Shown: positions 4,441 to 62,323 of the stretch, in pieces
Numbering within the stretch: the first letter of the stretch is position 1
How the letters are laid out: every line of letters begins with the position of its first letter
From: a virus
Reading direction: 5' to 3' (one strand)
Virus record (IMG/VR): IMGVR_UViG_3300044701_000569
Coordinates: 62,001 to 126,000 of that record
DNA length: 64,000 bases
The notes under the pieces: generated by a model
Seen by the model: only the letters and a program-made list of their open reading frames with translations
The model's database searches: none
What the model was told of the DNA's origin: nothing
Program-made: the position numbers and the translations under genes

Positions 4441-4776
4441 ATGAGACCACTTTGCCTCTGCGGACAGAGACCTGCAGCCGTTAATTATAAAAAAGGAAAG
4501 AAAACCTACTATCGCAAACTATGCGAAGTGTGTCTTCGTAGTGGCGTGGGACATGGCATTCCTAAATGGAAGCAGAGCGGATATGCAAAAAAGGATGTTT
4601 GCGAGAAGTGTGGCTTCAAAAGCAAACATCCTGAACAGTTTAATGTATTTCACGTTGATGGCGACCTAAACAACTGTCGACCAAACAATTTAAAAACAGT
4701 ATGTGCTAACTGTCAACGTATTATACAGAAAGAAGGTGTACGTTGGAAGCAAGGAGATCTGAGACCTGATTTCTAA
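4441..4776 (+). CDS. HNH-like zinc-binding endonuclease
   Basis: This 111-residue basic protein carries several Cys pairs: LCLC near the N terminus, CEVC, CEKC and CANC. The C-terminal segment has the spacing of an HNH nuclease core, with a His in FHVDGDLNNC and Asn-Leu in NNLKTVCANC. It could be a free-standing HNH endonuclease or a nucleic-acid-binding protein; the usual double His is reduced to one. The ribosome site is GGTGAGG. Its last 56 bases overlap, tail to tail, the end of the gp1 gene on the other strand, a compact arrangement typical of phages. Confidence 0.65.
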   Translation: MRPLCLCGQRPAAVNYKKGKKTYYRKLCEVCLRSGVGHGIPKWKQSGYAKKDVCEKCGFKSKHPEQFNVFHVDGDLNNCRPNNLKTVCANCQRIIQKEGVRWKQGDLRPDF

Positions 4777-6190: not shown

Positions 6191-7354
6191 ATGCCAAGAA
6201 TATCTCTATTTAAACCTGAACGCGGCAATGATTACGAATTCTTAGATCGACAGATCTCAGAAATGTTCACTGTTGGCGGTACAGACATAAACATACACAA
6301 GTACATGGGTCCTGTAAATCCTGCTGATGGTGATGCTACAGCAGACAAGCCCCAATATGACGCTGTTAAGGAAACTAACATACAAGATCTGCTATTTTTA
6401 GAAAATAGAGATAGAAAATATGATACCAGCGTTTACACTATGCGTGGTATCTATAACATACAAGACATAGACTTTAATCTAAGCCAATTTGGCTTATTTT
6501 TAAGTAACGACACACTATTCTTAACTATACACATTAGAGACAGTGTAAAAACACTAGGTAGAAAAATTATATCAGGTGATGTAATTGAACTTCCTCACTT
6601 AAAAGACGAGTATGCGCTGAACGACTATAGTATGGCCTTAAAACGTTTTTATGTAGTAGAAGATGTAAACAGAGCAGCTGAAGGATTTAGTCAAACTTGG
6701 TGGCCTCATTTGTATAGACTAAAACTTAAACAAATTTACGACGGACAGGAATACAGCGAAATACTAGATCTACCGGCATCAGAAGACAGTAATCAAACAC
6801 TAAGAGATGTGCTTAGTACCTATGAAAAAGAAATGCAGATTAATAGTGCTGTAATTGCACAAGCAGAAGCTGATGCTCCTAAGAGCGGTTTTACAACTAG
6901 TCATTTCTATACTGTAGCAACTAATGAAGACGGAACTGTTGCACTGCAAACTGCTGACGAAACAGATATAGATGCTAGCAACATTAGTACCAGTGCTGAT
7001 GAAATTGTTAACAGGCCTGCTAGAGAAGGCTATTCAGGTTATCTATTAAATTACGGTGACGGGTCAACACCTAATGCTGCACCTTACGGTTTTGGTATAC
7101 AATTTCCTCGCAGTCCTGTAGAAGGTGATTTCTTTCTTAGAACGGATTACATGCCCAATAGAATGTTCCACTATGATGGCGCTCGTTGGGTCAAATACAA
7201 AGATGATGTTAGAATGACACTAACAAATACTCTAGAAAGATATACTCACAGAACTTCGTTTATCAATAATACTAACACTAATACTATTAACGGTGAAGTA
7301 GTTGAAGAACGCCAAGCACTATCAAAAGCACTTAGACCTAAGGCGGACAACTAA
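6191..7354 (+). CDS. gp14: Neck protein gp14-like
   Basis: This neck protein works with gp13 to complete the head. The segment EDVNRAAEGFSQTWWPHLYR around residues 155-175 and the preceding GDVIELPHLKDEYALNDYS are characteristic of gp14. At 387 residues it is longer than T4 gp14 (256). The C-terminal extension includes EGDFFLRTDYMPNRMFHYDG, a copy of the module also inserted in the sheath protein. No ribosome site is visible, and the late promoter abuts the ATG. It overlaps gp15 by one base (TAATG), so the two are probably translationally coupled. Confidence 0.8.
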   Translation: MPRISLFKPERGNDYEFLDRQISEMFTVGGTDINIHKYMGPVNPADGDATADKPQYDAVKETNIQDLLFLENRDRKYDTSVYTMRGIYNIQDIDFNLSQFGLFLSNDTLFLTIHIRDSVKTLGRKIISGDVIELPHLKDEYALNDYSMALKRFYVVEDVNRAAEGFSQTWWPHLYRLKLKQIYDGQEYSEILDLPASEDSNQTLRDVLSTYEKEMQINSAVIAQAEADAPKSGFTTSHFYTVATNEDGTVALQTADETDIDASNISTSADEIVNRPAREGYSGYLLNYGDGSTPNAAPYGFGIQFPRSPVEGDFFLRTDYMPNRMFHYDGARWVKYKDDVRMTLTNTLERYTHRTSFINNTNTNTINGEVVEERQALSKALRPKADN

Positions 7355-8778
7355 TGTTACATTTTTATGATGGACAAATAAGACGGTATGTTACCCAATT
7401 GATGAGATTGGTTAGTAACTTTCCTGTTAAGGACGGCAAAGGTCAAGAAAAAATAGTTCCTGTTATGTATGGAGATTTAACACGACAGGTTGCTAATGTT
7501 ATAAGAGATAACTCAGAGAATAAGTTACCTAGTGCTCCTAGAATGAGTGTGTATATTACAGCATTAGAATTAGACAAAGATAGATTAACTGATGCTACTT
7601 ATACACGTTCTGTAAACATACGCGAACGTGAATTTGACGAAGAATCAGGAGAATACCTAAATACTAAAGGTCCTAACTATACTGTTGAACGACTAATACC
7701 TACACCCTACATGATGAGAACTAACGTAGATATATGGAGTTCGAATACAGATCAAAAGTTACAAATACTAGAACAGTTATTGGTATTATTTAATCCTAGT
7801 CTTGAAATACAGACTACAGATAATTTTGTTGATTGGACTAGTATTACAGTAGTTAATTTAGAAAGTGTACAATTTACAAACAGAAGTATACCTGTAGGTG
7901 TTGACACAGAAATAGACATTGCTACACTAACGTTTAGTATTCCTATCTATATTAGTCCGCCCAGCAAAGTTAAGAAAATGGGTGTTATTACTAATATCAT
8001 TACTAGTATGTTTGACGAAACTAGGGGAACAATCGAAACGGGTGTATCTGCGCCTGAAACTAATGCTTATGATGATTTTGCAGTACCTGGTTCTATTGAA
8101 AATGAATTTGGCAAGAGACCTGCTACTGCACTAACCAGTCAAATGGCAAATGTAAACTACAACACCTATGGTGTTTACATTGACGGTACAACAGCACAGT
8201 TAATTTCTAGAGGTACTGTAGGTAATAAAAATTGGAGAGATATTTTTGAAGCACTGCCTGGTAACTATGTTGCCGATGTTAGTAGAATTTATCTATCTAA
8301 TCTAGACAGTAACGTAACAGTTACCGGTACTATTAGCTTAAATCCGTTTGACGAAGGCAAAGTTTCAATCAACTGGGACGCAGACAGCTTTCCGCAGGAT
8401 GACATTATAACCAGTCCTATTGCTAGTAGAACCAGTATAGATTATATCATAGATCCTACACGCTTTAACCCTTCTGGGATCAAAGCTATAGGTGTGCGAT
8501 TGCTGCTATTAGAAGATGTTGGTAACGAAGATGCTGTAGAAAATCCTGTTGCTTGGAGAAATGCTGATAACTCAGGTTTAGTAGCAGGTGCTAATGACAT
8601 AGTAGAATGGAACGGCACAGCCTGGACTATAATCTTTGATGCTAGTGAAACTACCAATACAGTATACACTACAAACTTAAATACTGGCGTACAGTATAGA
8701 TTTACTGACAGTAGCTGGTACAAGAGTGTTGACGGTGAGTATCCAATAGGCACATGGAGGATTGATCTCTACGGCTAA
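7354..8778 (+). CDS. gp15: Tail completion and sheath stabiliser gp15-like
   Basis: This would cap the finished tail and connect it to the head. Residues 1-230 follow the gp15 plan: FYDGQIRRYVTQLMRLVSNF at the N terminus, VMYGDLTRQ, then SAPRMSVYITALELD and the TPYMMRTNVDIWSSNTDQKLQILEQLL region. T4 gp15 is 272 residues, while this one is 474. The additional C-terminal part (from about residue 240) is beta-rich, contains EWNGTAWTIIFD and YRFTDSSWYKS, and I do not recognise it as a separate domain. It is coupled to gp14. Confidence 0.78.
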   Translation: MLHFYDGQIRRYVTQLMRLVSNFPVKDGKGQEKIVPVMYGDLTRQVANVIRDNSENKLPSAPRMSVYITALELDKDRLTDATYTRSVNIREREFDEESGEYLNTKGPNYTVERLIPTPYMMRTNVDIWSSNTDQKLQILEQLLVLFNPSLEIQTTDNFVDWTSITVVNLESVQFTNRSIPVGVDTEIDIATLTFSIPIYISPPSKVKKMGVITNIITSMFDETRGTIETGVSAPETNAYDDFAVPGSIENEFGKRPATALTSQMANVNYNTYGVYIDGTTAQLISRGTVGNKNWRDIFEALPGNYVADVSRIYLSNLDSNVTVTGTISLNPFDEGKVSINWDADSFPQDDIITSPIASRTSIDYIIDPTRFNPSGIKAIGVRLLLLEDVGNEDAVENPVAWRNADNSGLVAGANDIVEWNGTAWTIIFDASETTNTVYTTNLNTGVQYRFTDSSWYKSVDGEYPIGTWRIDLYG

Positions 8779-8786
8779 TTATTAGT

Positions 8787-9227
8787 ATGACTAATATTAA
8801 CTGTAGCGGCGCCTTATTTTATACTTTAGAAACCAAAAGATTCCTGTTCTTATACCGCAAGAACGGTAAACGTTCTAATCAGTGGGGGATAGTTGGTGGA
8901 ACTAACGAAGGTGCGGAAACTCCTTGGGAAGGACTTCAACGTGAAATAGTTGAAGAAATTGGATCTATACCTTCTATTATCAAAACTATTCCGTTAGAAA
9001 CATTCATATCATCTGATCAGCAGTTTCATTTTCACACCTATCTTTGTGTAATCCGTTCAGAATTTATTCCTCAGCTTAACAACGAACATGACGGTTATGC
9101 TTGGGTAGGTTACGAAAATTGGCCAAGACCTCTGCATCACGGACTGCGCAATACCTTACAAAGCAAGATAAACAGAGCCAAGCTAGAAACAGTTTTTCGT
9201 ATGAGCGATTTACTTGACGAGCAGTAA
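8787..9227 (+). CDS. Nudix hydrolase
   Basis: This is a nucleoside-diphosphate-linked pyrophosphohydrolase of 146 residues. The Nudix box occupies residues 38-60, with the signature G-x5-E44-x7-R52-E53-x2-E56-E57-x-G59; the position after G59 is Ser rather than a hydrophobic residue. The tryptophan-rich C terminus (YAWVGYENWPRPLHHGL) resembles sugar-nucleotide or GDP-mannose-type Nudix enzymes, but the substrate cannot be read from sequence. It follows gp15 by eight bases with no clear ribosome site and leads into the heptose cassette, so hydrolysis of a nucleotide sugar is plausible. Confidence 0.88.
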   Translation: MTNINCSGALFYTLETKRFLFLYRKNGKRSNQWGIVGGTNEGAETPWEGLQREIVEEIGSIPSIIKTIPLETFISSDQQFHFHTYLCVIRSEFIPQLNNEHDGYAWVGYENWPRPLHHGLRNTLQSKINRAKLETVFRMSDLLDEQ

Positions 9228-9242
9228 AAAATCGTGTATATT
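9214..9242 (+). promoter_or_regulatory. Sigma70-type promoter for the heptose cassette (TTGACG-17-TATATT)
   Basis: TTGACG and TATATT are separated by exactly 17 bases. The -35 lies inside the Nudix gene and the -10 ends six bases before the ATG at 9248. The predicted start of transcription therefore falls on or beside that ATG. Confidence 0.75.
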
Positions 9243-9247
9243 ATAGT

Positions 9248-9646
9248 ATGAAAAAAATCTTTGTCAACGGATCTTTTGATGTTTTGCATAGAGGACACAT
9301 AGAGTTACTCAAGTATGCACGGCGTCAGGGTGATTTTTTAGTAGTTGCCATAGACACTGATGAAAGGATACGCTATCTTAAAGGTACATTGCGTCCAATA
9401 AACAATCAATGGGATAGAAAATTTGTGCTAGAAAATTTACGTGCTGTTGACGACGTATGTTTATTTTCGTCAGATGCCGAATTAGTTGCACTAATAAAAG
9501 AATACGCTCCAGACGTAATGGTTAAAGGCAGTGACTATATAGGTAAAAATATTATTGGAGCAGAATACTGTAAAGAAATTAAGTTTTATGACAGAACAGA
9601 ACACTCAACAACAAAAACAATTCAGGATATTATTACTCGGGGATAA
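9248..9646 (+). CDS. hldE: D-glycero-beta-D-manno-heptose 1-phosphate adenylyltransferase (HldE C-domain, RfaE2)
   Basis: This nucleotidyltransferase would join AMP to heptose 1-phosphate to give ADP-heptose. The start FVNGSFDVLHRGHIELL holds the H14-x-G-H17 nucleotide-binding motif, and VMVKGSDY near residue 92 matches the conserved KGxDY of RfaE2. Its 132 residues equal the stand-alone C-terminal domain of bacterial HldE. No Shine-Dalgarno sequence precedes the ATG, and a sigma70 promoter abuts it, so the mRNA may be leaderless. The next gene, the kinase half of HldE, overlaps its end by 59 bases in another frame; the order is the reverse of the fused bacterial enzyme. Confidence 0.9.
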   Translation: MKKIFVNGSFDVLHRGHIELLKYARRQGDFLVVAIDTDERIRYLKGTLRPINNQWDRKFVLENLRAVDDVCLFSSDAELVALIKEYAPDVMVKGSDYIGKNIIGAEYCKEIKFYDRTEHSTTKTIQDIITRG

Positions 9647-10361
9647 TTGTATTGATGTGTATCAGTATGGTACTGTTGATAGATTAAGCCCTGAGGCGCC
9701 GGTTCCTATCTTTAAATATAGTCACAAAGAACAACGACCCGGCATGGCCGGCAATGTTAATAACAATTTAAAAGCATTAGGTTGCAGTGTAAACTACCTG
9801 CATACGGAAACTAGTATGAAGACTAGGCTAATTGATAGCCGTAGTAAACAGCAGATGATTAGAATTGACGACGATGTTACAGCAACACCTATTACGTTTG
9901 AAACAGACATCCCTAACATTTACGATGCTGTTGTTATCAGCGACTATAATAAAGGAACAATAACATACGAGTTGATGGAAGAAATTATTCAATGGTCTAA
10001 CCACTCAACTAAAATTCCTGTTTTTATTGATACAAAGAAAACGGACCTAGCAAGACTGCAGGGTGCGTGGGTTAAAATTAACGAATTAGAATACAGTAAA
10101 ATTAAATCTTCTTGTTCAGGATTAATTGTAACTAGAGGAGAGAAAGGTGCTGTAATTCCGCACCATGAAATTAAATTAGATGCGCCGCGTGTTGAAGTTG
10201 TTGATGTAACAGGTGCTGGCGACACGTTTCTAGCTGCTCTTGCATACAAATGGCTAGAGACAGGAAGTATAAATGCAGCATTATTTTTTGCGGTAGAAGC
10301 GTCATCAATAACTGTACAGCATGTTGGATGCTATGCGCCAACAGTGGAGGAAATAGGATGA
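9588..10361 (+). CDS. hldE: D-glycero-beta-D-manno-heptose 7-phosphate kinase (HldE N-domain, RfaE1, PfkB family)
   Basis: This would phosphorylate heptose 7-phosphate at C1 to the 1,7-bisphosphate. PfkB features are clear: LLLGDNCIDVYQYG near the N terminus, RPGMAGNVNNNLKALG for sugar binding, and VVDVTGAGDTF with the catalytic base D212. Length is 257 residues from the chosen ATG at 9588; the frame is open further upstream to 9555. It overlaps the adenylyltransferase by 59 bases. Its stop overlaps the hldD start (ATGA), so these genes are translationally coupled. Confidence 0.88.
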   Translation: MTEQNTQQQKQFRILLLGDNCIDVYQYGTVDRLSPEAPVPIFKYSHKEQRPGMAGNVNNNLKALGCSVNYLHTETSMKTRLIDSRSKQQMIRIDDDVTATPITFETDIPNIYDAVVISDYNKGTITYELMEEIIQWSNHSTKIPVFIDTKKTDLARLQGAWVKINELEYSKIKSSCSGLIVTRGEKGAVIPHHEIKLDAPRVEVVDVTGAGDTFLAALAYKWLETGSINAALFFAVEASSITVQHVGCYAPTVEEIG

Positions 10362-11179
10362 AAATACTAGTAACAGGGCACAACGGATTTATTGGTAAAA
10401 ATCTTGCCATGTATCTTACATCAAAGGGTCACGAGGTATCTGGATGGGACTATGAACCTAACACTATACCTAATCCTGAAGGGTATGACTGGGTGGTACA
10501 TCTTGGTGCTATAACATCTACAACCTGCACAGATGTAGATCAAATAATGGAACAAAATTTTGAAAACTCTGTTAGATTAATTCAAGCCTGTGATATGATG
10601 GGAGTTAATTTTCAGTACGCTTCTAGTGCAAGTGTGTACGGATCTCATCAACATTTTAAAGAAAACGGACCTTTACTACCGCAAAGTCCGTATGCATGGA
10701 GCAAATATCTATTTGATAGATTTGTTAATCAACTTAAAGACGAATTTCAAATAACTGTTCAAGGTTTTAGATACTTTAATGTATACGGTATTGGAGAAGA
10801 ACACAAAGGTGATCAGGCTAGTCCTTACACTAAATTTAGAGAACAAGCAATTTCTAACAAAAAAATAAAATTGTTTGAAGGCAGTGAAAACTACAAGAGA
10901 GATTTTGTTTGGGTAGGTGACGTATGCCGTGTGCATGAATTAATGTTGGAAAAGTCTGAGCGTGGTATTTTCAATGTAGGCACAGGATCTCCAGTTAGTT
11001 TTGACACTATAGCAAGAACCATAGCACAGCGTTATTCAGCTGAACTAGAACACATACCTATGCCTGAAAATTTACGGTCTCAGTACCAAACCTATACCTG
11101 TGCAAATTTAGAAAAATTAAACAGTGTAATTGATATGCAATGGACTAGAATAGAGGATTATATAAATGGAACAGACTAA
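10358..11179 (+). CDS. hldD: ADP-L-glycero-D-manno-heptose 6-epimerase (HldD, RfaD)
   Basis: This short-chain dehydrogenase-type epimerase would convert ADP-D,D-heptose to ADP-L,D-heptose. It has the Rossmann motif GHNGFIG (residues 7-13), YASSASVYG, the catalytic Y112-x3-K116 in SPYAWSK, and FRYFNVYG followed by FVWVGDV, all typical of HldD. It has 273 residues from the ATG at 10358, chosen because GGAGG lies seven bases upstream and the ATG overlaps the kinase stop. E. coli HldD is 310 residues. It overlaps the following cupin gene by 14 bases. Assignment as another NAD-dependent sugar epimerase is possible, but the neighbours favour HldD. Confidence 0.85.
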   Translation: MKILVTGHNGFIGKNLAMYLTSKGHEVSGWDYEPNTIPNPEGYDWVVHLGAITSTTCTDVDQIMEQNFENSVRLIQACDMMGVNFQYASSASVYGSHQHFKENGPLLPQSPYAWSKYLFDRFVNQLKDEFQITVQGFRYFNVYGIGEEHKGDQASPYTKFREQAISNKKIKLFEGSENYKRDFVWVGDVCRVHELMLEKSERGIFNVGTGSPVSFDTIARTIAQRYSAELEHIPMPENLRSQYQTYTCANLEKLNSVIDMQWTRIEDYINGTD

Positions 11180-11591
11180 TCTACAACCGCAACGACTGTC
11201 AGGAGTTGTTAAAAAAGGCTGGGGCTATGAACTTATATGGGCAACTAACGAAAAGTATGCAGGCAAAATTCTTGCATTTGATCATGCAGGATCTAAAATG
11301 AGTATGCATTTCCATAGGCAAAAAGACGAAACATGGTTTGTTAACAGCGGAAAATTTCTAGTACGTTGGATTGATACAAACACTGCTAAGGTGAATGAAA
11401 AAGAATTAAATGAAGGCGATATTTGGCACAATCCTCCACTTCAACCTCACCAACTGATTGCTCTTGTTGACGGTGCCAGTATAACTGAAGTAAGTACTCC
11501 TGATTCTGTAGAAGACAATTATAGAATTTCTCCAGGTGACAGTCAAAAGGAACAAACTAAAGATGTCAAACCGGTACCTCCACAGTATTGA
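11166..11591 (+). CDS. Cupin-fold sugar-metabolism protein
   Basis: This 141-residue protein has a single cupin barrel. The start KKGWGYELIWATNEKYAGK and the metal-site motif MSMHFHRQKDETWFV (two His and a Glu), then PLQPHQL with a further His, resemble the C-terminal domain of type II mannose-6-phosphate isomerases and related small phage cupins. The reaction is unknown. Its position inside the heptose operon suggests isomerisation or binding of a phosphosugar, possibly replacing a missing step. It overlaps hldD by 14 bases and the phosphatase gene by 29 bases. Confidence 0.75.
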   Translation: MEQTNLQPQRLSGVVKKGWGYELIWATNEKYAGKILAFDHAGSKMSMHFHRQKDETWFVNSGKFLVRWIDTNTAKVNEKELNEGDIWHNPPLQPHQLIALVDGASITEVSTPDSVEDNYRISPGDSQKEQTKDVKPVPPQY

Positions 11592-12183
11592 TGTGTCTTC
11601 TGATCCTATAGCAACACGATGTGTGATAGGATTAGATCGAGACGGAGTTATAAATCGTGATCTAGGAACTTATGTAACTGATCCTGATCAATTTGAACCT
11701 ATACCAGGTAGTATAGAAGCTATTGCTAAAATACGACGCTTAGGTCATAAAATAGTTATCATTACCAATCAAGGTGGTATTGAAAAAGGTATTATGACCG
11801 AACAAGACGTTGATAGAGTTCATGCAAGAATGTTTGACATGCTGGGTGCTGCAGGATGCAGCAGTTTAGATGCTCTTTACTACAGTGCCAGTAGTAGGAA
11901 AGAAGATCCGTTTGCAAAACCAAACGTAGGCATGTTCAAACGTTGCGAAAATGAGCATCGTCAGATAAAGTTTTCTGAAGGATTTTATGTAGGGGATAAA
12001 ATAACTGATTTAAAAGCAGCCTTAAAGATTGGTGCTAGACCAGTACTGGTAAGAACTGGTTACGGAAAAGAAACTGAAGAACTATTAAATCGTTTCACTT
12101 ATAAAAGAATAAAGCAGCAAACTCAAATATTTGATGATCTTGCTGCTTTTTCTCTTTGGTTAGAATCAAACAATTACGCCTGA
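11563..12183 (+). CDS. gmhB: D,D-heptose 1,7-bisphosphate 7-phosphatase (GmhB-like, HAD family)
   Basis: This would remove the 7-phosphate from heptose 1,7-bisphosphate, supplying the substrate of the adenylyltransferase. HAD motif I is GLDRDGVINRD with D25 and D27, motif II is VIITNQGG, and motif IV is YVGDKITD. The start at 11563 has AAGGA upstream; a GTG at 11536 is the alternative. The zinc-binding loop present in E. coli GmhB (Cys-x-His ... Cys-x-Cys) is absent: the corresponding stretch reads YYSASSRKEDPFAKPNVGM with no Cys. The 206-residue gene ends 10 bases inside the convergent giant fibre gene and contains a terminator in its own 3' end. Confidence 0.88.
   Translation: MSNRYLHSIDVSSDPIATRCVIGLDRDGVINRDLGTYVTDPDQFEPIPGSIEAIAKIRRLGHKIVIITNQGGIEKGIMTEQDVDRVHARMFDMLGAAGCSSLDALYYSASSRKEDPFAKPNVGMFKRCENEHRQIKFSEGFYVGDKITDLKAALKIGARPVLVRTGYGKETEELLNRFTYKRIKQQTQIFDDLAAFSLWLESNNYA
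12111..12151 (+). terminator. Rho-independent terminator inside the gmhB coding end
   Basis: AAAGCAGCAA (12111-12120) pairs perfectly with TTGCTGCTTT (12140-12149), with an inner palindrome TCAAATATTTGA, followed by TTCTCTTT. It lies about 30 bases before the gmhB stop. It would end the heptose transcript before it runs antisense into the fibre gene. Confidence 0.75.
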
Positions 12184-20564: not shown

Positions 20565-20615
20565 GTAGTATTTAGTAATTTTGAGGCATAAGTAAAACTA
20601 TACCAGGAATTGCAC

Positions 20616-21314
20616 ATGTTTTCAAAAAAGATAAATTTAACAGCCTACACACTAGATAAAAATATATACGACTTTTGTAAACCTGTTTATAAAAGCAAAG
20701 CTAAACCTTCATGGTTAGAGCAGCTAAAGAGTGTAATAGTAAGTTGGGACGAACGTACACAGATGCCTGCTAAGAGCGGAACTTTGTTAACTTGTCCAGG
20801 CGTTAGAGATTTTTTATCAACACCAATACAAGTACCTATGTGGGGAGATATAGATATTCTTATCAAACCTGATGGTTCTTGGACATACAATACTAGACCA
20901 GAATGGGGACTAACAGTAACTCATCACAACGAAGCTCAGTTTAAAGGAGCATATAATAATCGTCTAGCACTAAAATTATCTAACCCTTGGATTTTTAAAA
21001 CAGATTCTAAAGTAAATTTTATGGTAACAGAATCACATTATAGTACCAGTTACTTTAGAGATCTAGGTGTGTTATTTTCTCCAGGAGTAACAAATTATTA
21101 TAAGCAACATTCGTTAAATGTTCATTTAAATTGTCCCATAAAAGATGAAGCATATATTATTAATTTAAAACACGGAATGCCATTGATATCAATTTTTCCT
21201 ATGACTGAAAGAGAAATAGAGTTTGATTCACAATTAATAAGTGTTGAAGAATGGAATAATATTTCAAACCATTTTCCTTACACATTTGTAGGTAGGTATT
21301 TTAAAAAGGACTAG
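20616..21314 (+). CDS. Unknown protein, paralogue of the next gene
   Basis: The 232-residue product starts at the ATG at 20616, which has AGGA seven bases upstream; an in-frame TTG at 20610 is less likely. I do not recognise a named family. The order of segments KSGTLLTCPGVRDFL, NPWIFKTDS, the CP-containing middle and the hydrophobic LISIFPMTEREIEFD C terminus can be laid over the following gene (SCPAFVNSV, ANWIFFSDD, MYLKVNTND). It has no signal peptide or membrane segment. It forms a tight plus-strand operon with 21316 and the oxygenase gene. Confidence 0.7.
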   Translation: MFSKKINLTAYTLDKNIYDFCKPVYKSKAKPSWLEQLKSVIVSWDERTQMPAKSGTLLTCPGVRDFLSTPIQVPMWGDIDILIKPDGSWTYNTRPEWGLTVTHHNEAQFKGAYNNRLALKLSNPWIFKTDSKVNFMVTESHYSTSYFRDLGVLFSPGVTNYYKQHSLNVHLNCPIKDEAYIINLKHGMPLISIFPMTEREIEFDSQLISVEEWNNISNHFPYTFVGRYFKKD

Positions 21315-21315
21315 T

Positions 21316-22041
21316 ATGGCAAAGACTGTTTATTGGGCTCCGTGGGGGCCGCCACAAAAATATAGTGAGTCTTTTTTAGGATACACAGATCCTGTAAATG
21401 TTTTTACAGATACAATGAGATTTACTAATAAGGAAAACAAATTAGATAATTTCTTTAGCTGTCCAGCATTTGTTAATTCTGTAAAAAATACATTTTTATT
21501 TAAAAGTCCTGCAAATTGTGATGTAGAGTTTAAAGAAGAATATATTATTAATAAAGCTAGTCCTAATATAATATACGATCGCGATGTTCTAGTCTTTAAA
21601 AATCCATCAATGTTAGATTCATATACAATTAGATTTGCAGCTAATTGGATTTTTTTTAGTGACGATGACTTAGATATAGAATCAAGACATCCGTATCTTC
21701 ATCAAACTCAGGTATCTAAATACGGTTATTACGTTCCGGGTACTATGAATATAGGCGCTTGGTTTAGGCCGCTGGAATATGCATTTCAATGTTGGCCGGG
21801 TGTTACTGAGTTTAAAGTAGATCAAGAAGATCCTTTAATGTATCTTAAAGTTAATACTAATGATCCAGTTGTTTTTAAAAAGTTTTATTTAACACCTGAA
21901 TTATTTGATCTTTCTATGAGCTGTGTAAGATTAAAAAATTATTGGCGAGAAAGAAATTTAAAAAGGTTGTACAATATTTTTAATGCATCTAAAATACGCA
22001 ATAAAATTCTTAATGAAATTAAAAAGAATCTAATGGATTAA
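21316..22041 (+). CDS. Unknown protein, paralogue of the preceding gene
   Basis: This 241-residue protein begins MAKTVYWAPWGPPQKY and shares the conserved layout of the 20616 product: a SCP motif at about residue 50, ANWIFFSDDD in the middle, and a beta-rich PLMYLKVNTNDPVVFKK segment. It has an extra basic C-terminal helix (NYWRERNLKRLYNIFN). The ribosome site AAGGA lies inside the end of the preceding gene. Two diverged copies side by side suggest a heteromer. Function unknown; context suggests sugar or virion modification together with the oxygenase. Confidence 0.7.
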   Translation: MAKTVYWAPWGPPQKYSESFLGYTDPVNVFTDTMRFTNKENKLDNFFSCPAFVNSVKNTFLFKSPANCDVEFKEEYIINKASPNIIYDRDVLVFKNPSMLDSYTIRFAANWIFFSDDDLDIESRHPYLHQTQVSKYGYYVPGTMNIGAWFRPLEYAFQCWPGVTEFKVDQEDPLMYLKVNTNDPVVFKKFYLTPELFDLSMSCVRLKNYWRERNLKRLYNIFNASKIRNKILNEIKKNLMD

Positions 22042-22043
22042 CA

Positions 22044-22625
22044 ATGCAATTTGACGAAATATTTCCTACCTATCTAGTTAAAGACATTAATTTAAAATTA
22101 GCAGAAAAACTATTACCTCTCTGCAATAGATACACAGATGAAACAAAAACTAATTGCCTTCATATAGAAAATTTTCCAAGTACGCTGTATGATAGAGATT
22201 TAGAACGTAAGGTTATGGATGAACCTGAGGTTAAAGAAGCGTTTGATATTATCATTGAGTCTTACTTGAAGCCGTTTTTAAATCATCGAGGTATAAATTT
22301 GCCACAGCCTTTAAAACCTTTTGGGTTTTTTAGTTCAATGAAAAAGCATGCTTATCTTAGAAAGCACTGTCATTTAGATTCTTTATTTGCTGGAATAATC
22401 TATTTAGAAGTAGGTAAAGAAGTGCCACCGTTAATTCTGTATGATCCTAAACCAATGAGATCGTTCATAAACTGGCCGTTGTTACCCAACAATACTAAAG
22501 ATACCCCTCTATTGGTTATACCCCCTCAACAAGGTTTAGTATTATTGTGGGACTCGTATTTAGAACACGAGGTTCCTCAAAAATTAAATGACGAACCTCG
22601 TAAAACTTTTGTCTTTAATCTTTAA
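22044..22625 (+). CDS. 2-oxoglutarate/Fe(II)-dependent oxygenase-like protein
   Basis: This 193-residue protein has the iron-binding triad of the 2OG-Fe(II) fold: H110-x-D112 in HCHLDSLFAG and H175 in SYLEHEVPQ, with R186 in EPRKTFVFNL as the likely 2-oxoglutarate ligand. It resembles the small 2OG oxygenases common in T4-like marine phages, which are thought to hydroxylate proteins or other substrates; the actual substrate is unknown. It ends four bases inside the convergent carbamoyltransferase gene. A 9-bp stem (22567-22575 with 22593-22601) near its end may aid termination. Confidence 0.8.
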   Translation: MQFDEIFPTYLVKDINLKLAEKLLPLCNRYTDETKTNCLHIENFPSTLYDRDLERKVMDEPEVKEAFDIIIESYLKPFLNHRGINLPQPLKPFGFFSSMKKHAYLRKHCHLDSLFAGIIYLEVGKEVPPLILYDPKPMRSFINWPLLPNNTKDTPLLVIPPQQGLVLLWDSYLEHEVPQKLNDEPRKTFVFNL

Positions 22626-24421
22626 TTTTTAATCTGCACTAACTTTCCGTATTCTGGCAAATATAGATATTCTATATCACTTCTTGCCAGTGTGTCTAAT
22701 GCGTCGTCTAGTGTTTCAACTAACGGATCTCCGCCAAGATTAAAACTTGTATTAAACAATATAGGAACTCCAGTTTTTTTGTAAAACTCGTTTATTAGAC
22801 CGTAATAGTGAAGATTTTGTTCTTCTGTTACAGTCTGTATACGGCAAGTTCCGTCAATGTGAATAATGCTTGGAATTTTTTCTTCTATTCCTGGTTGACA
22901 ATTAACAGCATACATCATATATGGGGTATCTTCCATACCTCGTAAATCAAACCATTCGTGTACGTGCTCTTTTAAAATACTTCCAGCGAACGGTCTAAAA
23001 TATTCTCGTCTCTTAACATTATTTACAAATTCTTTACCATCTTTAAATCTAGGATCAAATAGAATACTTCTGTTTCCTAATGCTCTAGGTCCGTTTTCTG
23101 ATTTTCCTTGAAAAATAGCAACAATATTTTTTTCTTCTAGCAAACTAACTATTTTTAAATAGTCGGCTTCTACAATTTTACCGTTAACTTTTTCTACAGC
23201 TTGTTCTAACTCGTTATTGCTGTAAGTGTATTCAAATCCAAGATAAAGGCCATCTTTAGTGTAATCAACACAAGAGTCTGGTTGTAGATCATAATATACC
23301 AACATTGCTGCACCTATAGCAGTGCCTGCATCGTTGCTGATTGGTTCTACATACATCTTAATACCCAAGTCGTTTAATTTATTTAGATAATAGTAATTTG
23401 CAACGCAATTTAATCCGTAGCCGCCGCTTACTACTACATTCTTTTCACCTGTTAGTTCACAGGCCTTAATAATTAAATCTAAAACAAGGTCTTGTGTCTG
23501 TGTTTGAACAGCATAGGCAAGATCTCTTCTGTTTTCTAATAGCGTTACATCGTAATCATCTGTATTGCCGTGATCATTTAAAAATTTAAATATTCCGTAA
23601 TTAACTACACTACCGTTTGGATATGTAGGCACTATTAAGTTTCTATTAGAAAGAGGCAGGTCACTAGTAGAATCAAACAGTTCTGGAATCTTGTCGTTTG
23701 GTTTACCGTACGGAAATAAACCCATAGTCTTTCCTGCTTCGATGCCGGGCCAACCGCAGTATTGTGTTACTGCTTCGTATACTTTTACTATTCCAGCTCT
23801 ATCGCTTACAATAGCTTGGTGTGTCTGACCTTTTTCACCGTACATCGTACCGTCTGCATCATTTACAACAAAACAATTTTGTATGCCTCGCATTCCAACA
23901 TTTTTATAGAGTGTTTTAAAATTATTTGGATACCCGCAAGAAAAAATTGATTCTGTTTCCCATCCTATAGACTGCTCTCCATAGATATCTTTCATAGGAA
24001 TAAATGTGCCTGCTCCATCTACTATAACTGCTGCTGCACTTTTAAAACCTGATCTATAAAATGCACAGGCTGCATGTAGCTTATGGTGCATTGTGCTAAG
24101 ATCAATTACTTGAGGGTGATTAATCATATCACCCTTTCTGTCAATAAGATTTAATTTTCTAGCGAGACCAGTATAAACATCTTCGCCCATAAAATCAACT
24201 TTGCCTGCTGTATCTTTTAAAGATTGAGTGTGTGCTACTACAAGATAATCAAGTTTGTCAGTATATTCTTTTATTTTCATCATAGCAGCGTAGGGGCCGC
24301 CATCGTACTTGGCTCTTGTTAAACGTTCTTCTTCAATGCTAAAAACAATTTTTCCATTTTTTAGAAGACAAACGCTAGCATTATGTCCTCTTGCTATTCC
24401 TGCTATCCAAATATCTTTCAT
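22622..24421 (-). CDS. Carbamoyltransferase, NodU/CmcH family
   Basis: This 599-residue enzyme would transfer a carbamoyl group from carbamoyl phosphate, via ATP, to a hydroxyl, typically on a sugar. Family motifs are all present: GHNASVCLL and SIEEERLTRAKYDG at the N terminus, TMHHKLHAACAFYRSGF, VDGAG, VSGGYGLNCVANY, EPISNDAGTAIGAA, then the C-terminal domain with GPRALGNRSILFDPR, REYFRPFAGS and FNTSFNLGGDPLVET. Length is normal for the family. It lies three bases after the GT9 gene, so glycosyl transfer and carbamoylation are probably coupled. Carbamoylation of modified DNA bases is an alternative. Confidence 0.93.
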   Translation of the reverse strand: MKDIWIAGIARGHNASVCLLKNGKIVFSIEEERLTRAKYDGGPYAAMMKIKEYTDKLDYLVVAHTQSLKDTAGKVDFMGEDVYTGLARKLNLIDRKGDMINHPQVIDLSTMHHKLHAACAFYRSGFKSAAAVIVDGAGTFIPMKDIYGEQSIGWETESIFSCGYPNNFKTLYKNVGMRGIQNCFVVNDADGTMYGEKGQTHQAIVSDRAGIVKVYEAVTQYCGWPGIEAGKTMGLFPYGKPNDKIPELFDSTSDLPLSNRNLIVPTYPNGSVVNYGIFKFLNDHGNTDDYDVTLLENRRDLAYAVQTQTQDLVLDLIIKACELTGEKNVVVSGGYGLNCVANYYYLNKLNDLGIKMYVEPISNDAGTAIGAAMLVYYDLQPDSCVDYTKDGLYLGFEYTYSNNELEQAVEKVNGKIVEADYLKIVSLLEEKNIVAIFQGKSENGPRALGNRSILFDPRFKDGKEFVNNVKRREYFRPFAGSILKEHVHEWFDLRGMEDTPYMMYAVNCQPGIEEKIPSIIHIDGTCRIQTVTEEQNLHYYGLINEFYKKTGVPILFNTSFNLGGDPLVETLDDALDTLARSDIEYLYLPEYGKLVQIKN

Positions 24422-24424
24422 ATA

Positions 24425-25345
24425 TTAAACCTTTTTCTTTATGTGTTCTCTAATTTTTTCAATTAACTCGTTGGTTTCTTTTTCTGTAAAATCCATACAA
24501 GAATCATTATATCTATTAGCTATATCAGCATCTATACCATTTTCAGAAATTCTAATAGGAAAGTATCGTATATCAACTGGGGTTTTTTGTAATATTTGAA
24601 AATGATCAGAATATGTTATATTTTCAGCAAACGTGCTGCCAAGTATCACAGTTCCGGGCTTATCAAATGCGTAAGCCATATGTTGTCCTACGCTGTCACA
24701 GCCTATAAAATAATCAGATGCTTCAACAATAGCTGCCCATTGTCTTAGACTAGTTTGTATTTTAAACGACTTATTTTCAACATCAAGATGCTCGCCAAAA
24801 TAAATTACATTGTAATCTTTCATTAAATTATCTAAAATTTGATTGTAGGCTTTCTTTGTGAGAGATCTACTCATTGGATCAATTACTTCGCTGTGCATTA
24901 CAGTTGATGATCTACCAAACGGTTGAATAACTATAGTCTTTTCTCTGTTTTGAGCTTTCTTAGCGTTAATGAGAGCATCAACAGCATTCATTTCTTCTTG
25001 TTTAGATAATACTATTTTTGGTTTTTCTAAATCTGAATGATCTTCGGTGTCATTGATCAAATAGTCAAATGACTCGATTAAATTTCTTTTTTGATTATAA
25101 TATCCGTGATCTCTATAAGGTTCAGGAGTAACTATAACATTTGGTTTAATTATAGTTTCAAAAAGATTTTTTGTTTCAGGACCATAAGCAAGGTCCTGCA
25201 ATTCTTTAATACCTACAAAGAATTCAAGACCGCTCTCTGCTAGAATGTAAAAATTTGGGCCGTGTTTCTTATAATACTTTAGCAGTGCTGGAATAGCACA
25301 TATTACTCTGCCAGCGCCTCCGCCAATAGCAAAAATTTTTTTCAT
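24425..25345 (-). CDS. Glycosyltransferase family 9-like (heptosyltransferase-like)
   Basis: The 306-residue protein has the two-domain plan of ADP-heptose transferases: an N-terminal MKKIFAIGGGAGRVICAIPALLKYY resembling the GT9 start, IVIQPFGRSS at the beginning of the second domain, and ASDYFIGCDSVGQHMAYAFDKPGTVILG, which matches the nucleotide-sugar site of WaaC/WaaF-type enzymes. It would transfer a heptose to lipopolysaccharide or to protein, as the TibC-type heptosyltransferases do. It is the only gene here that could use ADP-heptose made by the cassette at 9248-12183. Its ATG follows directly on a hairpin and T-run that hide the likely ribosome site. Confidence 0.75.
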   Translation of the reverse strand: MKKIFAIGGGAGRVICAIPALLKYYKKHGPNFYILAESGLEFFVGIKELQDLAYGPETKNLFETIIKPNVIVTPEPYRDHGYYNQKRNLIESFDYLINDTEDHSDLEKPKIVLSKQEEMNAVDALINAKKAQNREKTIVIQPFGRSSTVMHSEVIDPMSRSLTKKAYNQILDNLMKDYNVIYFGEHLDVENKSFKIQTSLRQWAAIVEASDYFIGCDSVGQHMAYAFDKPGTVILGSTFAENITYSDHFQILQKTPVDIRYFPIRISENGIDADIANRYNDSCMDFTEKETNELIEKIREHIKKKV

Positions 25346-27653: not shown

Positions 27654-27974
27654 TTACACCGTAGATGTTTCGATACCGTAGGCAACGGCACTAACACTGG
27701 TTGCACTTGCACGAACTACTAGTAGTTTACCTGCATCAATAACTATACCAGTGCGTTCAAGTACACCTTTAGGTGCAATCGCTGCTTCGTATTCTAAATA
27801 TTCACTATCACTAGGAGTAGCTGAACTAGCCATTGCTAATCTAACAGTTACCGTACTAGAACCTCTATTGCAAAATGATACAGATGCAATAGCAAATGTG
27901 CTAGATGGGCAAGTATACAACGTAGTATTCGTTGTAGCTGCTAAATCAAGGGCTCCTAATCTTCCTGTTGCCAT
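27654..27974 (-). CDS. Small virion protein, 110-residue family, copy A
   Basis: This 106-residue beta-rich protein has the pattern LYTCPSSTFAIASVSFCNRG, then YLEYEAAIAPKGVLERTG and LVVRASATSVSAVAYG. Two related proteins occur at 37880-38209 and 45212-45550, each beside a large fibre gene. I infer a small capping or connector protein that associates with its neighbouring fibre. The ribosome site is GGAG. Confidence 0.65.
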   Translation of the reverse strand: MATGRLGALDLAATTNTTLYTCPSSTFAIASVSFCNRGSSTVTVRLAMASSATPSDSEYLEYEAAIAPKGVLERTGIVIDAGKLLVVRASATSVSAVAYGIETSTV

Positions 27975-27987
27975 AATATGTTCTCCA

Positions 27988-30900
27988 TTAACTTGATGCT
28001 AAGAAGTAGTTTAGGGCCAATGGTGAACCGTCTACTCCTTGTTTAAAATTCATTCTCTTGTTTATATTAATCGGACCACCACTAGTAGTAGTTATCTGAT
28101 TTGTTGAAATTACAACATCTCCCGCTGTAACTGTATTTACATTTAATATGGCACCACCGCCACCAATTTGCGATTCAATGTAAGTTCTAATAGCTCTCTG
28201 AGTTGGAACAATACTATCGCTGTTGGCTGCAAATGTTCCGTCTGTTGAAAACTCGTTAACAGCAGTGTTTGAGCTTCCTAGTGTTACTGAACCTAACTGT
28301 AGTTCCTGTAGACCGCTTAGGTTAAAGGCATTAGCATTTAGCGTTGATCTACCAGTTGACTGTTCAACTGAGAACAAATCACCTACTCTAAAGTTACCAT
28401 CTTGGTCAGTGCTGGTAAAGAACACACGACCGCCGCCAAATTCTTTAGTTTCTTTAGTTTGATCTGGTGCTATTAAAGGTGTTCCAGGATAGTTTGTATT
28501 TGCAAAATTACCTGTACCAATATCTAAGAAGTCATGACCTGTTAAGCGTACTTGGCTGTATCTAATTCTAATAGTAGCTGTAGTTAAATGTTCTGGTGCT
28601 AGAGCAATAGTAACTTCTGGGCTCAACTGTAATCTAGCTGTATAAGGTCCTGAACCTAACAGTTCAGTTACTGATACTAATTTGTATACAGATGAATTAC
28701 CATCAAAGACTACGTTAGAGCCAGCAGTTGGTACAGAAGTTAGTCCTGACATGTTAACATAGAAACCGTTTTGGTATTGATCTCTATAACCTTCACCAGT
28801 CATAAACGCACCAGTAGCTGAATAGCCAACTCCGCCTGATACTATTGACGGACTGCCTAGCGCACCGTTTCCTGTTCTTACAGTATAAGTTGCTTCACTG
28901 GTATTCACAGGATCTGTTATTGTTATAGTTGGTACTGAAGCATATCCGCTGCCTGGTTCCCACAAATTAATTGCTGATATCTGTCCACTAGCAACTACTG
29001 CTCTGCCTTGAGTGCGTGTTATGTTTGGTATAGATAATGCACTAGATGCTCCTGTAGCAATAATAGTCCATATTGGGTTGCTGCTTGGATTACCAAAACC
29101 AACAGTTGTCCACGTATCTGAACTTACTGCTCTTGATGTCCATGTAATGCCGTCTGTGCTTGTTGCAATAGCAACTGATGTACCACCGCCATAGCCGGCT
29201 ATAGCAATGAACGTTCCTTGACCGTAGTGTATTTCTTTCCATGTGCTGGACGCTGGCAGTGTTGCAGATACCCAGGTTATACCATCAAAGGAATAAGCTG
29301 CGTCTGCACTGCCTGTGGCTACTGCTACGAATCTTCCATTGCCGTAGGTTACACTGGTCCAGTTAGCACTAGCTGGTAGTGTTGCTGCTAACCAAGTTGT
29401 GCCGTTAGTACTATAAGCAGCAGCAGTACTTGCTCCACTTGCACCTGATATTGCAACAAACTTGTTTTTACCATAAGTTACACTGTTCCATGTAGTGCTT
29501 GAGGGCAATGCGCCGCCTGCTGTCCAACTAGTACCGTTAGTGCTGTATGCTGTATCAGTTCCGCCACTGGCTACTGCTACAAATCTGCTTCCGCCAAATG
29601 CAACACTAGTCCATGTAACTGATGCAGGAAGTGTTGCAGCAGTCCATGATGTACCACCGTTTGTAGAGTACGCTGCATTTGTGCCGCCGCTGGCTACAGC
29701 AACATGATAAGTTGTACTACTAATAACACCGCTATCAACAGAGCTCCATGTAGCACTTGCTGGTAATGCGCCACCAGCAGTCCACGAAGTACCATTTGAC
29801 GAATAAGCAGAATCTGTTCCGCCGCTGGCTACTGCTACAAACTGGCCGCCTCCATATGCTACAGAAGTCCAATTAGACGGTGAAGGCATCGTTCTAGATG
29901 AAGCTGTATATGTTGGTGCTGTAAATTCAATTCTTGGTTCTATCTGATATACTGTAGTTAAATCTAATGTTGATTCAATAGTAGTACCAGGTACAACATG
30001 ATCCCATCCAGCTGTTCCTGTTGATTCTTTGTAGATAGTAGCTACCTTAGTACCCGAATCGTATGCTTGTACGTAGCCGTATTGACCTACACCTTTACCG
30101 CTAGCAACGACTACTCTCATTCCTAAGTATTGTGTGCTAATACCTGTGTCAGCGCCTGACAATGTAATACTAGTTGTGTTACCTGTTTGAGCTATTCCTG
30201 ATGGATAGCCGTAATCAGCGCCGGCAGTTAACATTCTTACTTCAAAGACAGCACCGTCTCTAATTTCATCTCCAACGACAGTCGCGCCAAAGCCATTACC
30301 AGTAAAGGTAAATGCATTATTTGAAGTTGTGTACTCGCTACCTGCATTCTTGTATTCAAGTCTTAGAATGCTGTTACCGTTAGTGAACACATTACCAATT
30401 TCTGCTTCATAAGCTCTGTTGTTTACTGTTCCGGTAATAGGAGTTTCTGAAACATCAAAACCTTCTGCTACGCAACCAAACGAGCCATATGATGAGTTTC
30501 CGTTTGTTGCACGAATTTTTCCGCCGTGTTCTGCTAGGTAACCTATGTGTCCATAATAAGAGAACACAGAAACAAGTTCTGATCTGCCTAACTCTGTACA
30601 CCATACGCCAATACCGTCACTTAGTACTTGTGTAAAGTCGTTAGCAACAATAGAATCATTACCACCGTTGTGCAAGCTGCCGTCTATTTTTAGACCAACG
30701 CAGGCTGTACCAAATGTAGTAACGTTCTGAACATATGGGGACTTGTTAATAATCCATGCCTTAGTATCGTTGGGACCCCAACCTGGATCTAAACTAACAA
30801 ACGCACCTGCACTTGGTCTACGTGTTCCAAACGCATTTGGTGATCCTAGCGTACCTGTTAGACCTTGAACAGTACAGTTACGAAGACCTGTACCATTTCT

Positions 30901-60326: not shown

Positions 60327-60548
60327 TTACCGAGGCTCGTTTTTAGCTGCCTCTCTCTTGAGTTGTTTAACTTCATTGTGTGATTTGTGTATTTCTTCCA
60401 TGCGTAGTTTAGCGAGCCTGCGTATTTCTCTTAAATGCCTTCGTGCAGCTACATGGTTACGCACCGAATTACTCAGCTTAAAGCGATCGTGAGTCTTAAA
60501 ATACTCAAGGTATGCTTGAATCAGTAATTCGTGCGTGTCTTTTTCCAT
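60327..60548 (-). CDS. Small basic helical protein, 73 residues
   Basis: The sequence is Lys/Arg/His-rich and helical (HVAARRHLREIRRLAKLRME), suggesting nucleic-acid binding. I do not recognise a named family. Its ATG overlaps the gp46 stop by one base (TAATG), so it is translationally coupled to gp46 and may take part in recombination or replication. Confidence 0.75.
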   Translation of the reverse strand: MEKDTHELLIQAYLEYFKTHDRFKLSNSVRNHVAARRHLREIRRLAKLRMEEIHKSHNEVKQLKREAAKNEPR

Positions 60549-62323
60549 TAGTCTACGTAGTCAATGTCATTGGCGTAACTGGTAAAGCCGTTTTCCTTAA
60601 TAACCTTAAGGACATTGTTAACTCTTCCAATTAATTCATCCTTGTGGCTGATTAGATAGATATTCTTTTGACGTTCTCTACCCATTTTCTTAAGGACACC
60701 TAGTGAATTTTCAACTCCCGCAGTATCCATACCACTGTCAATTAGCTCATCAATGAATAGTAAGTTGATATTTTGATATAAACTTTCCCATACATCACGG
60801 AATGCAAAGCTGAGACCTAAAATAAGTCTATTTCGTTCACCGCGGCTTAGGTTATCAAAGTCTAGGTCCTGTCCTAGCTGTGTGATTTCAACATTTAGGT
60901 CGTTTAAGAACACAACTTGATGTGGAAGTCCTAGTTTGTCTAGATAGTACGTTAGTCTATTGTTTAGATAGGCTAGATTTTGATCAATAATCTTCTTGCG
61001 GATAAAGCTATCCTTGTTAGTCAGTAGTTTTAACAAGAACTCTTGATGTTCCCTGTAAGAAGTTAGATCGTTAACAGTTCCCCAAGTTATTTCTTGGATA
61101 GCAGTCTTGTTTAACTCGTCAATCTGCGCCTGATAAGGATCGTCTTCGTTAAGTTTTTGTTCAAGTGCCTTCTTAAGATTCTCAACATTGTTGCGATGAT
61201 CGTAGGCTTCCTTAGCAGTTTCATAGAAAGTGTTTGGCTTGCCGTTGATATTTCCTATTTGAGCAAGAGCCATTACAGTATCGCTCAACTTTGTGCTAAC
61301 TTCCTGATAGTAAGTATCTGCATCACGCAGTTCCTTGCTCTTTTTAGCTAGAATTTCCTGCTTCTTGTCAGCATGCAAGGGCTGATTACATGCATAGCAA
61401 ACAGCTTCTTCTAAATCTTCAATGTCTTTTTCGACCTTTTTAACAGTCTTTTCTGCTTGCAGTAGAGCACTGTCCAATGTGCTTTTTTCTTTATTAAGAG
61501 CCGTAATTTGCTTGTTAAGTTCCGACCAATTAGCCAGCTTTTCGTGATTTTCAAGCTCTTGATCAATGTCAAGTTGCTCTAATTCTTGTATAGCTTGCTG
61601 TAATTTTGCCGCATCTTGTGCTGTTTTTGACTGCCAAGCCTTCTGTGTAGACTTTAAACTTTCAATAGTTGTCTGTATTTTAGCATTAGCTGCTTGCAGA
61701 GCATTGATTTTCAGTGTCTCTTCTGTGATTGCATCTTTGGTTAGTTTTACTTGTTCTTTTAGAGACTCTGCCTTCTCAGAAAGTATAGTAATACCTAACA
61801 GTTGCTCAATAATAGCTCTTTGATCGTTCTGCTTCATAGCTAGGAACGGTTCAGTATAGGTGTTTAGTGCAAGGATATGTTTAAACATATCATGGCTCAT
61901 GCCTAACAGTGTGTCAATAGTGTTCTGCGTATCTCTACTGTCACCTTGGCTTTCGTCTGTGAGTTCTTGTTCTTCGTCGTTTATATAAAATTTAAGAAGA
62001 TTAGGAGAGCGTCCGCGCTCAATCCTATAATCAACACCACTTTTTTCAAAGTGCAGTGTAACTAACATGCCTTTGTTGTTGGTTTTGTTAATTAAGTTAT
62101 TCTTCTTAATGTTAGTTAATGCTTGGCCGTACAGTGCATAACTGAGTGCATTAATAATAGTAGTTTTGCCTGTACCGTTACGAGAACCAGTATCGTCACC
62201 TCCTTGATCTAAGTTTTCGCCAAGCACTAGAGTTAGCTGTTCCTTGTTAAAGTTAACAGCTTGAGTTTGGTTGCCCACACTCATAAAGTTTTTTACAGTA
62301 AGATCTTTAATTTTTATTGTCAT
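60548..62323 (-). CDS. gp46: Recombination endonuclease subunit gp46 (Rad50/SbcC-like)
   Basis: This is the ATPase partner of gp47, which resects DNA ends for recombination-dependent replication. Walker A is SRNGTGKTT (residues 47-55), the zinc-hook Cys pair is CYAC at about 308-311 between long coiled coils, the ABC signature is LSRGERNRL at about 491, and Walker B is LLFIDE at about 524. The 591-residue length compares with 560 in T4. It overlaps gp47 and the next gene by single bases (TAATG), forming a coupled operon. Confidence 0.96.
   Translation of the reverse strand: MTIKIKDLTVKNFMSVGNQTQAVNFNKEQLTLVLGENLDQGGDDTGSRNGTGKTTIINALSYALYGQALTNIKKNNLINKTNNKGMLVTLHFEKSGVDYRIERGRSPNLLKFYINDEEQELTDESQGDSRDTQNTIDTLLGMSHDMFKHILALNTYTEPFLAMKQNDQRAIIEQLLGITILSEKAESLKEQVKLTKDAITEETLKINALQAANAKIQTTIESLKSTQKAWQSKTAQDAAKLQQAIQELEQLDIDQELENHEKLANWSELNKQITALNKEKSTLDSALLQAEKTVKKVEKDIEDLEEAVCYACNQPLHADKKQEILAKKSKELRDADTYYQEVSTKLSDTVMALAQIGNINGKPNTFYETAKEAYDHRNNVENLKKALEQKLNEDDPYQAQIDELNKTAIQEITWGTVNDLTSYREHQEFLLKLLTNKDSFIRKKIIDQNLAYLNNRLTYYLDKLGLPHQVVFLNDLNVEITQLGQDLDFDNLSRGERNRLILGLSFAFRDVWESLYQNINLLFIDELIDSGMDTAGVENSLGVLKKMGRERQKNIYLISHKDELIGRVNNVLKVIKENGFTSYANDIDYVD

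Follow-up and report, generated by a model that had tools for sequence, protein, structure and literature searches.

A predicted ADP-heptose synthesis cassette and a GT9-fold partner among the tail-fibre genes of a phage related to jumbo phages

A viral DNA stretch of 64,000 nucleotides (the window; positions 62001-126000 of the 357,559-bp IMG/VR virus record IMGVR_UViG_3300044701_000569) is predicted to encode a near-complete pathway for the synthesis of ADP-heptose, an assignment that is well supported by homology. Beyond the window, the analysis covered the record by targeted searches and one 10-kb stretch. The genes of this cassette overlap one another, all on the plus strand, and lie in the tail region, where a first-pass annotation made from the letters alone had placed them, between a homologue of T4 gp15 and the gene of a 2326-residue fibre protein. 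The four enzyme genes and the internal cupin gene that it had proposed were recovered with intact frames, the enzymes by hidden Markov model (HMM) and PDB matches and the cupin by its Pfam domain. This core was thus rightly drawn, but the system reaches further, to 20610-25345, with a 2-oxoglutarate (2OG) oxygenase, a carbamoyltransferase and a GT9-fold, heptosyltransferase-like protein that the first-pass annotation did not include. The cassette is not unique to the window phage, since P-SSM2, S-CAM1, S-SSM7 and other cyanophages carry the kit, filed as 'LPS (lipopolysaccharide) genes'. The pathway was therefore already present in phages, and what is new is its recognition in this lineage and its architecture, with an overlooked transferase-like partner.

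Enzymes and motifs of the predicted cassette

When compared with the bacterial GmhA/HldE/GmhB/HldD pathway, four of the five activities are matched by homology with active-site motifs kept; the window differs in that it has no SIS-type GmhA, that separate HldC and short-kinase genes stand in place of a single HldE, and that a cupin is added. Active-site loss was looked for, and the key motifs were found to be kept in HldC, the kinase, HldD and GmhB. The HldC and kinase genes overlap by 59 bases, and an ATG at 9588 suits the relatives better as kinase start than a TTG at 9555. In addition to its HMM match (Table 1), the kinase matched phrog_8133 (8e-88) and HldA in the PDB (4e84, 5.9e-20), and by sequence it keeps the SPEAPVP and GAGD (VTGAGDT) motifs. 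In sister phages HldC and the kinase form one fused protein, a short HldE of 384-396 residues, and this gives independent support for the pathway. The best PDB sequence matches of HldC were other cytidylyltransferases, so its specificity rests on the HMM and on the HldE fusion in relatives. HldD matched the E. coli enzyme (1eq2, 9.1e-48) and keeps the YxxxK, HKG..AS and EGSENxKRDFV stretches, and GmhB, compared with 4pnh (6e-27) and 2gmw (6e-17), carries its DxD motif as LDRDG, a motif kept in 26 of the 28 homologues listed. As would be expected of phage versions that have diverged, most of the enzyme scores were below the curated NCBIfam cut-offs for equivalogs. Around the cassette, promoters of the sigma-70-like and T4 late types showed no excess over chance, and no conspicuous RNA structure was seen at its 3′ end.

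The Nudix hydrolase gene, which had been taken as the front member of the cassette, belongs instead to the gp15 position and is probably not a member of the pathway, the relative L013 keeping the nudix and gp15 genes without the cassette beside them.

Three further observations concern cassettes elsewhere. A different sample yielded the 8.7-kb contig L020, whose cassette proteins share 99-100% identity with the window versions, against only 84% for the adjoining part of the fibre. Two HldD-like epimerases flank the cupin, HldC and kinase genes at L137:4360-7500 (record G305) and L024:8487-11574; one of the two copies lacks the HKG motif and may act on another substrate. In two other large phages, GmhB-like proteins encoded beside the carbamoyltransferase (L013:12661-13233 and L141:4184-4804) have lost the HAD DxD motif, and are apparent pseudo-enzymes retained in place.

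A GT9-fold protein next to the carbamoyltransferase

About 12 kb from the cassette, the window encodes a previously unannotated protein of 306 residues with no Pfam assignment, in which the GT9 pattern D-S-x-x-x-H was first spotted by eye. The window protein scored only E 0.031 against PF01075 and 12 of 12 homologues gave weak matches to it (best 1.1e-4), so that the gene was missed by this model because of divergence. Searches of the PDB with the single sequence or a profile gave nothing significant (WaaF at E 2.6). With the AlphaFold2 model (predicted local distance difference test score, pLDDT, 83; predicted template modelling score 0.86), Foldseek placed TibC, WaaF, a Veillonella GT9 protein (3tov) and WaaC within the first 30 ranks (1e-8 to 1e-7). 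A second aligner (VIA) gave these proteins Z scores of 18-22 and the next enzyme family Z scores of at most 12, with plant NDH-complex subunits of the same fold falling between the two at Z 18. The model thus shows a GT-B fold of the GT9 type.

The fold and the D-S-x-x-x-H nucleotide-sugar region are common to the window protein, to the TibC/AAH autotransporter heptosyltransferases (BAHT) and to WaaC/WaaF. It differs from TibC and GT9 enzymes in having an invariant arginine in place of the catalytic aspartate and in its length (306 residues against about 400); the alignment with TibC begins at residue 98, and the N-terminal barrel of TibC is outside the matched part. Of these bacterial GT9 proteins, the ones with a known substrate use ADP-heptose, and TibC attaches heptose to protein. 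Canonical glycosyltransferase domains (PF01075 for GT9, PF00535 and PF00534 for GT2 and GT1) had no match in the phage record, and by these searches the divergent GT9-fold protein is the only candidate transferase found there. Its neighbour has both Pfam domains of the NodU-type O-carbamoyltransferases, from which the phage version differs in being the constant neighbour of a GT9-fold gene.

Shortened GT9-fold genes were also seen in Vibrio phages of about 78 kb (31 records listed; e.g., L018:7974-8711), and in Vibrio phage D505 a GT9-fold gene directly precedes a large tail gene, the carbamoyltransferase and heptose genes not being nearby.

Conservation of the module in separate phage lineages

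The GT9-fold gene adjoins the carbamoyltransferase in 30 of 32 loci, the other two belonging to Vibrio and Aeromonas phages. The cassette kinase, which is present in only 38 of 50,697 records overall, was found in 22 of the 24 phage records with a GT9-fold homologue (at least 80% query coverage); it was missing from a 4-kb fragment and from Aeromonas phage HJ05. When the IMG/VR records bearing the GT9-fold gene were searched whole, HldD was present in seven of eight (the eighth is a 24-kb fragment), and the best carbamoyltransferase matches (44-65%) came from the same phages as the GT9-fold/kinase set. The loci inside each lineage are kin, so that these counts are not independent and overstate the linkage; the agreement between two lineages is its strong point.

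One lineage is that of the window phage. Jumbo phages of the GAP32, CBB, PA5oct and Phosso type, which infect Pseudomonadota, have major capsid proteins with 65-70% identity to that of the window phage (47350-48525). By its virion genes the window phage falls outside Kyanoviridae and is not a cyanophage. In records G306 and G308 the gp15, nudix, kinase or HldE, HldD, cupin and GmhB genes run in this order towards a convergent fibre gene, beyond which lie the carbamoyltransferase and GT9-fold genes in reverse orientation; G307 has the same order up to HldD, where the contig ends. In about 17 other contigs GmhB is directly convergent with the oxygenase, carbamoyltransferase and GT9-fold genes.

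Unlike those of the capsid protein, the closest relatives of the cassette among named phages are marine cyanophages, phages of another family in which the same enzymes also adjoin fibre genes; by sequence, the cassette is thus common to separate phage lineages. In the window, the HldC, kinase, cupin, HldD, carbamoyltransferase, GT9-fold and fibre genes lie within about 16 kb. As there, the cluster of P-SSM2, S-CAM1 and S-SSM7 (T4-GC 303-308) has HldC overlapping a short kinase, together with the cupin, HldD, carbamoyltransferase and GT9-fold genes and fibre neighbours. It differs in that a capless HAD protein of about 110 residues stands where the window phage has GmhB, that HldD is on the opposite strand, and that its genes are contiguous, whereas the module of the window is split by the fibre gene. 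The giant fibre protein, whose gene is convergent with the cassette and which is a candidate acceptor, is 43% identical over 1342 residues to the fibre beside the S-CAM1 cassette. The 1824-residue and 106-residue fibre proteins (Table 1) accompany the module in both lineages, and their homologues adjoin the GT9-fold and carbamoyltransferase genes in L005, L011, L007, L015 and L041.

Cyanophage clusters of this kind have been described before. T4-GC 304, 305, 307 and 308 were reported to co-occur in P-SSM2, S-SM2 and S-SSM7, and the authors raised the question of whether these are working LPS genes or stuffer DNA (PMC3037559); a review of jumbo phages ascribed such clusters to O-antigen diversification or to a carbamoylated secondary metabolite, with no mention of heptose (PMC7824862). 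In addition, rfaE is listed among pelagimyophage genes (PMC7029224), and one huge phage from wastewater was reported with a heptosyltransferase I (PMC10747093). No paper that names a phage heptosyltransferase linked to this cassette was found in the open-licence literature.

Other features near the module are also listed in Table 1. Oxygenases of the same family occupy the corresponding place in relatives, and most jumbo relatives have the two conserved companions together with the carbamoyltransferase/GT9-fold pair. Elsewhere in the window there is an SbcC/SbcD-like nuclease pair (60548-63333) and a free-standing HNH-like gene (4441-4776) with an 81% identical counterpart in L048.

Table 1. 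Predicted features of the module and its neighbours (positions in the window)
Feature	Position	Strand	Evidence and remarks
HldC, adenylyltransferase	9248-9646	+	TIGR02199 5.7e-34; phrog_7878 2e-44; HxGH motif present as HRGH
HldA-type heptose 7-phosphate kinase (PfkB family), 257 residues	9588-10361	+	TIGR02198 6.6e-49
HldD, 6-epimerase	10358-11179	+	TIGR02197 3.4e-69
Cupin (HxHx4Ex6G...H)	11166-11591	+	Cupin_2 1.6e-6
GmhB, heptose 1,7-bisphosphate 7-phosphatase (HAD-IIIA)	11563-12183	+	PRK08942 5e-40
GT9-fold (heptosyltransferase-like) protein, 306 residues	24425-25345	-	Fold; weak PF01075
NodU-type O-carbamoyltransferase, 599 residues	22622-24421	-	PF16861 6.5e-58; PF02543 2.6e-26; phrog_1601 1.7e-167
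2OG-Fe(II) oxygenase	22044-22625	+	PF13759 8.7e-15; phrog_81
Giant fibre/virion structural protein, 2326 residues	12174-19154	-	phrog_5838 7e-256; phrog_4527 short tail fiber
Tail-fibre protein (1824 residues) and small fibre-like protein (106 residues)	27654-33462	-	phrog_9851 tail fiber 7e-198; phrog_11338
Conserved companion (phrog_7084)	20610-21314	+	Homologues beside carbamoyltransferase/GT9-fold gene in L007, L009, L010, L013, L017
Conserved companion (phrog_17480)	21316-22041	+	32-59% identical in L007, L009, L010, L013, L017
Nudix hydrolase, 146 residues	8787-9227	+	PF00293 2e-13
T4 gp15 homologue	7354-8778		Upstream neighbour of Nudix gene and cassette

The GmhA step and the cupin

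The first-pass annotation had named GmhA as the only enzyme missing, and this held for the whole record, in which three models (PF13580, TIGR00441 and PF01380) detected no SIS-domain protein; no SIS-type gene was seen in the related cassettes either. Every cassette readable over its full length has a cupin. All 17 cupin homologues gave weak matches to the D-lyxose isomerase model Lyx_isomer (best 2.3e-4), and 13 of the 17 weak matches to the phosphomannose isomerase model MannoseP_isomer. The AlphaFold2 model of the cupin (pLDDT 84) matched many cupin structures, those of phosphomannose and D-lyxose isomerases being among them; since many of these tie (Z 13.5-16), the fold does not settle the function. 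The conversion of sedoheptulose 7-phosphate to D-glycero-D-manno-heptose 7-phosphate is the chemistry of fructose 6-phosphate to mannose 6-phosphate with one carbon more, and mannose and phosphomannose isomerases of the cupin type are known.

With regard to the hosts, none of 10 Prochlorococcus, Synechococcus and Cyanobium genomes matched GmhA, and among 300 genomes of the Synechococcus/Prochlorococcus family a match (E <= 0.001) was found in 61 and none in 239. Hosts without GmhA are thus common, not universal, in this family, so that phages there could often not rely on a host enzyme. That the cupin is a non-homologous replacement of GmhA is a reasonable, unproven proposal, which we put forward tentatively and rate below even.

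P-SSM2 gp311 (L001:7728-8072), a protein of about 110 residues, is labelled 'phosphoheptose isomerase' in cyanophage records (PHROG 1238). The PHROG 1238 protein has a DxDGT...TARGMGR...GKP...DDKG pattern and no SIS domain, and a homologue has weak HAD-type Pfam matches. By motif it is probably a capless HAD phosphatase, the widely copied isomerase label being wrong, and in cyanophages it seems to take the place of GmhB in the cassette.

Discussion

From the gene identities, motif retention, co-conservation and location that we observed, we infer the enzyme activities, the transfer by the GT9-fold protein, its acceptor and the order of the steps. The cassette would make ADP-L-glycero-beta-D-manno-heptose during infection by means of the HldA-type kinase, GmhB, HldC and HldD; the first step would fall to a GmhA of the host or, on a more speculative view, to the cupin. 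The heptose might then be moved by the GT9-fold protein onto a virion protein, most likely one of the giant tail-fibre proteins encoded nearby, and the sugar or the fibre would be further modified by the NodU-type carbamoyltransferase, possibly assisted by the 2OG oxygenase. The first-pass annotation had offered either LPS rebuilding or virion decoration as the purpose. Because the genes lie among tail fibres in two lineages and cyanobacterial LPS lacks heptose, decoration fits better; heptosylation of tail fibres, together with carbamoylation, is in our view the most likely use, a preference over LPS rebuilding that we hold with about even confidence.

Several points weigh against tail-fibre heptosylation. 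The GT9 catalytic aspartate (D13 of WaaC, D110 of TibC) is an arginine in all N-terminally complete homologues, and in an alignment of the homologues with WaaC this arginine sits in an invariant GG[AL]GR motif. The D110A variant of TibC is inactive (PMC4358343) and the aspartate is thought to be the GT9 catalytic base, so that, judged by its sequence, the arginine-type protein fails one defining feature of GT9 heptosyltransferases. Heptose transfer is therefore a prediction for this protein, which may work with a different base, acceptor chemistry or cargo, or may have a binding-only role. The kinase is about 60-75 residues shorter than bacterial HldA, a short form that is also present in cyanophages; its function is predicted, and the virion acceptor is a candidate. 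Furthermore, the fibre neighbourhood also houses other accessory genes in these phages, the counted loci are kin, and use in LPS is possible.

The strongest competitor, which we consider possible and clearly less probable than decoration of the fibres, is remodelling of the host surface, in which the phage ADP-heptose feeds heptosylation of LPS or surface glycans and, for example, blocks superinfecting phages. Heptose is a core sugar of LPS in many Gram-negative hosts, the relatives by capsid protein infect Pseudomonadota, and similar cyanophage clusters have been read in this way, as LPS or O-antigen genes (PMC7824862, PMC3037559). However, cyanophages have the same module although heptose and KDO are both absent from cyanobacterial LPS (PMC4390846), so that their product cannot simply top up LPS heptose; in addition, the phage record has no Pfam-level GT9, GT1 or GT2 domain, and the genes are in the tail-gene region beside fibres. 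Release of a soluble product, either a carbamoylated, hydroxylated sugar metabolite or ADP-heptose as a signal, appears unlikely. In animals, free ADP-heptose acts as an immune agonist; the first-pass annotation had pointed to this signal and suggested a use of heptose nucleotides in phage-host conflict, but nothing in the analysis supports a role in immune signalling or in conflict. A secondary-metabolite role was predicted for the related S-SSM6a cluster, with its carbamoyltransferase, halogenase, oxygenase and cupin (PMC7824862), but a halogenase or amino-acid methylase was not seen in the stretch examined, and what constantly accompanies the cluster is a GT9-fold gene in the neighbourhood of fibre genes.

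The two other explanations are very improbable. T4-like relatives glycosylate hydroxymethylcytosine by GT-B fold transferases, and heptose might likewise be placed on modified bases of the phage DNA; yet the only PF00303 protein in the record has ordinary thymidylate synthase motifs, with no second one as candidate dCMP hydroxymethylase, and the genes are found with tail genes, not with those of DNA metabolism. The genes could also be host-derived filler with no function in infection, the 'stuffer DNA' raised for cyanophage LPS genes (PMC3037559), and the GmhB-like gene of L013 with its lost DxD agrees with this idea, but frames and motifs are intact across many contigs, gene order is conserved, HldE is fused in one branch and its genes split in another, and most cassettes keep one of the two kinds of HAD phosphatase.

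In its fullest form, heptosylation of the fibre would be a self-contained viral protein-heptosylation system, with the cupin as GmhA, an arginine-type GT9-fold enzyme and a carbamoyl cap, which passes from one phage lineage to an unrelated one as a single block together with fibre genes; we regard this version as doubtful. In any case, genes filed as 'LPS genes' or filler can now be read as a pathway open to testing, which has a named product and a candidate transferase, the first for this module as far as could be found. The cultured phages P-SSM2, S-CAM1 and S-SSM7 carry the same module, so that its purpose can be tested directly. The cupin, if it does replace GmhA, would supply the missing step through an enzyme of unrelated origin. 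If tail fibres do carry carbamoylated heptose, abundant ocean phages would depend for receptor binding and host range on a sugar absent from the LPS of their own hosts.

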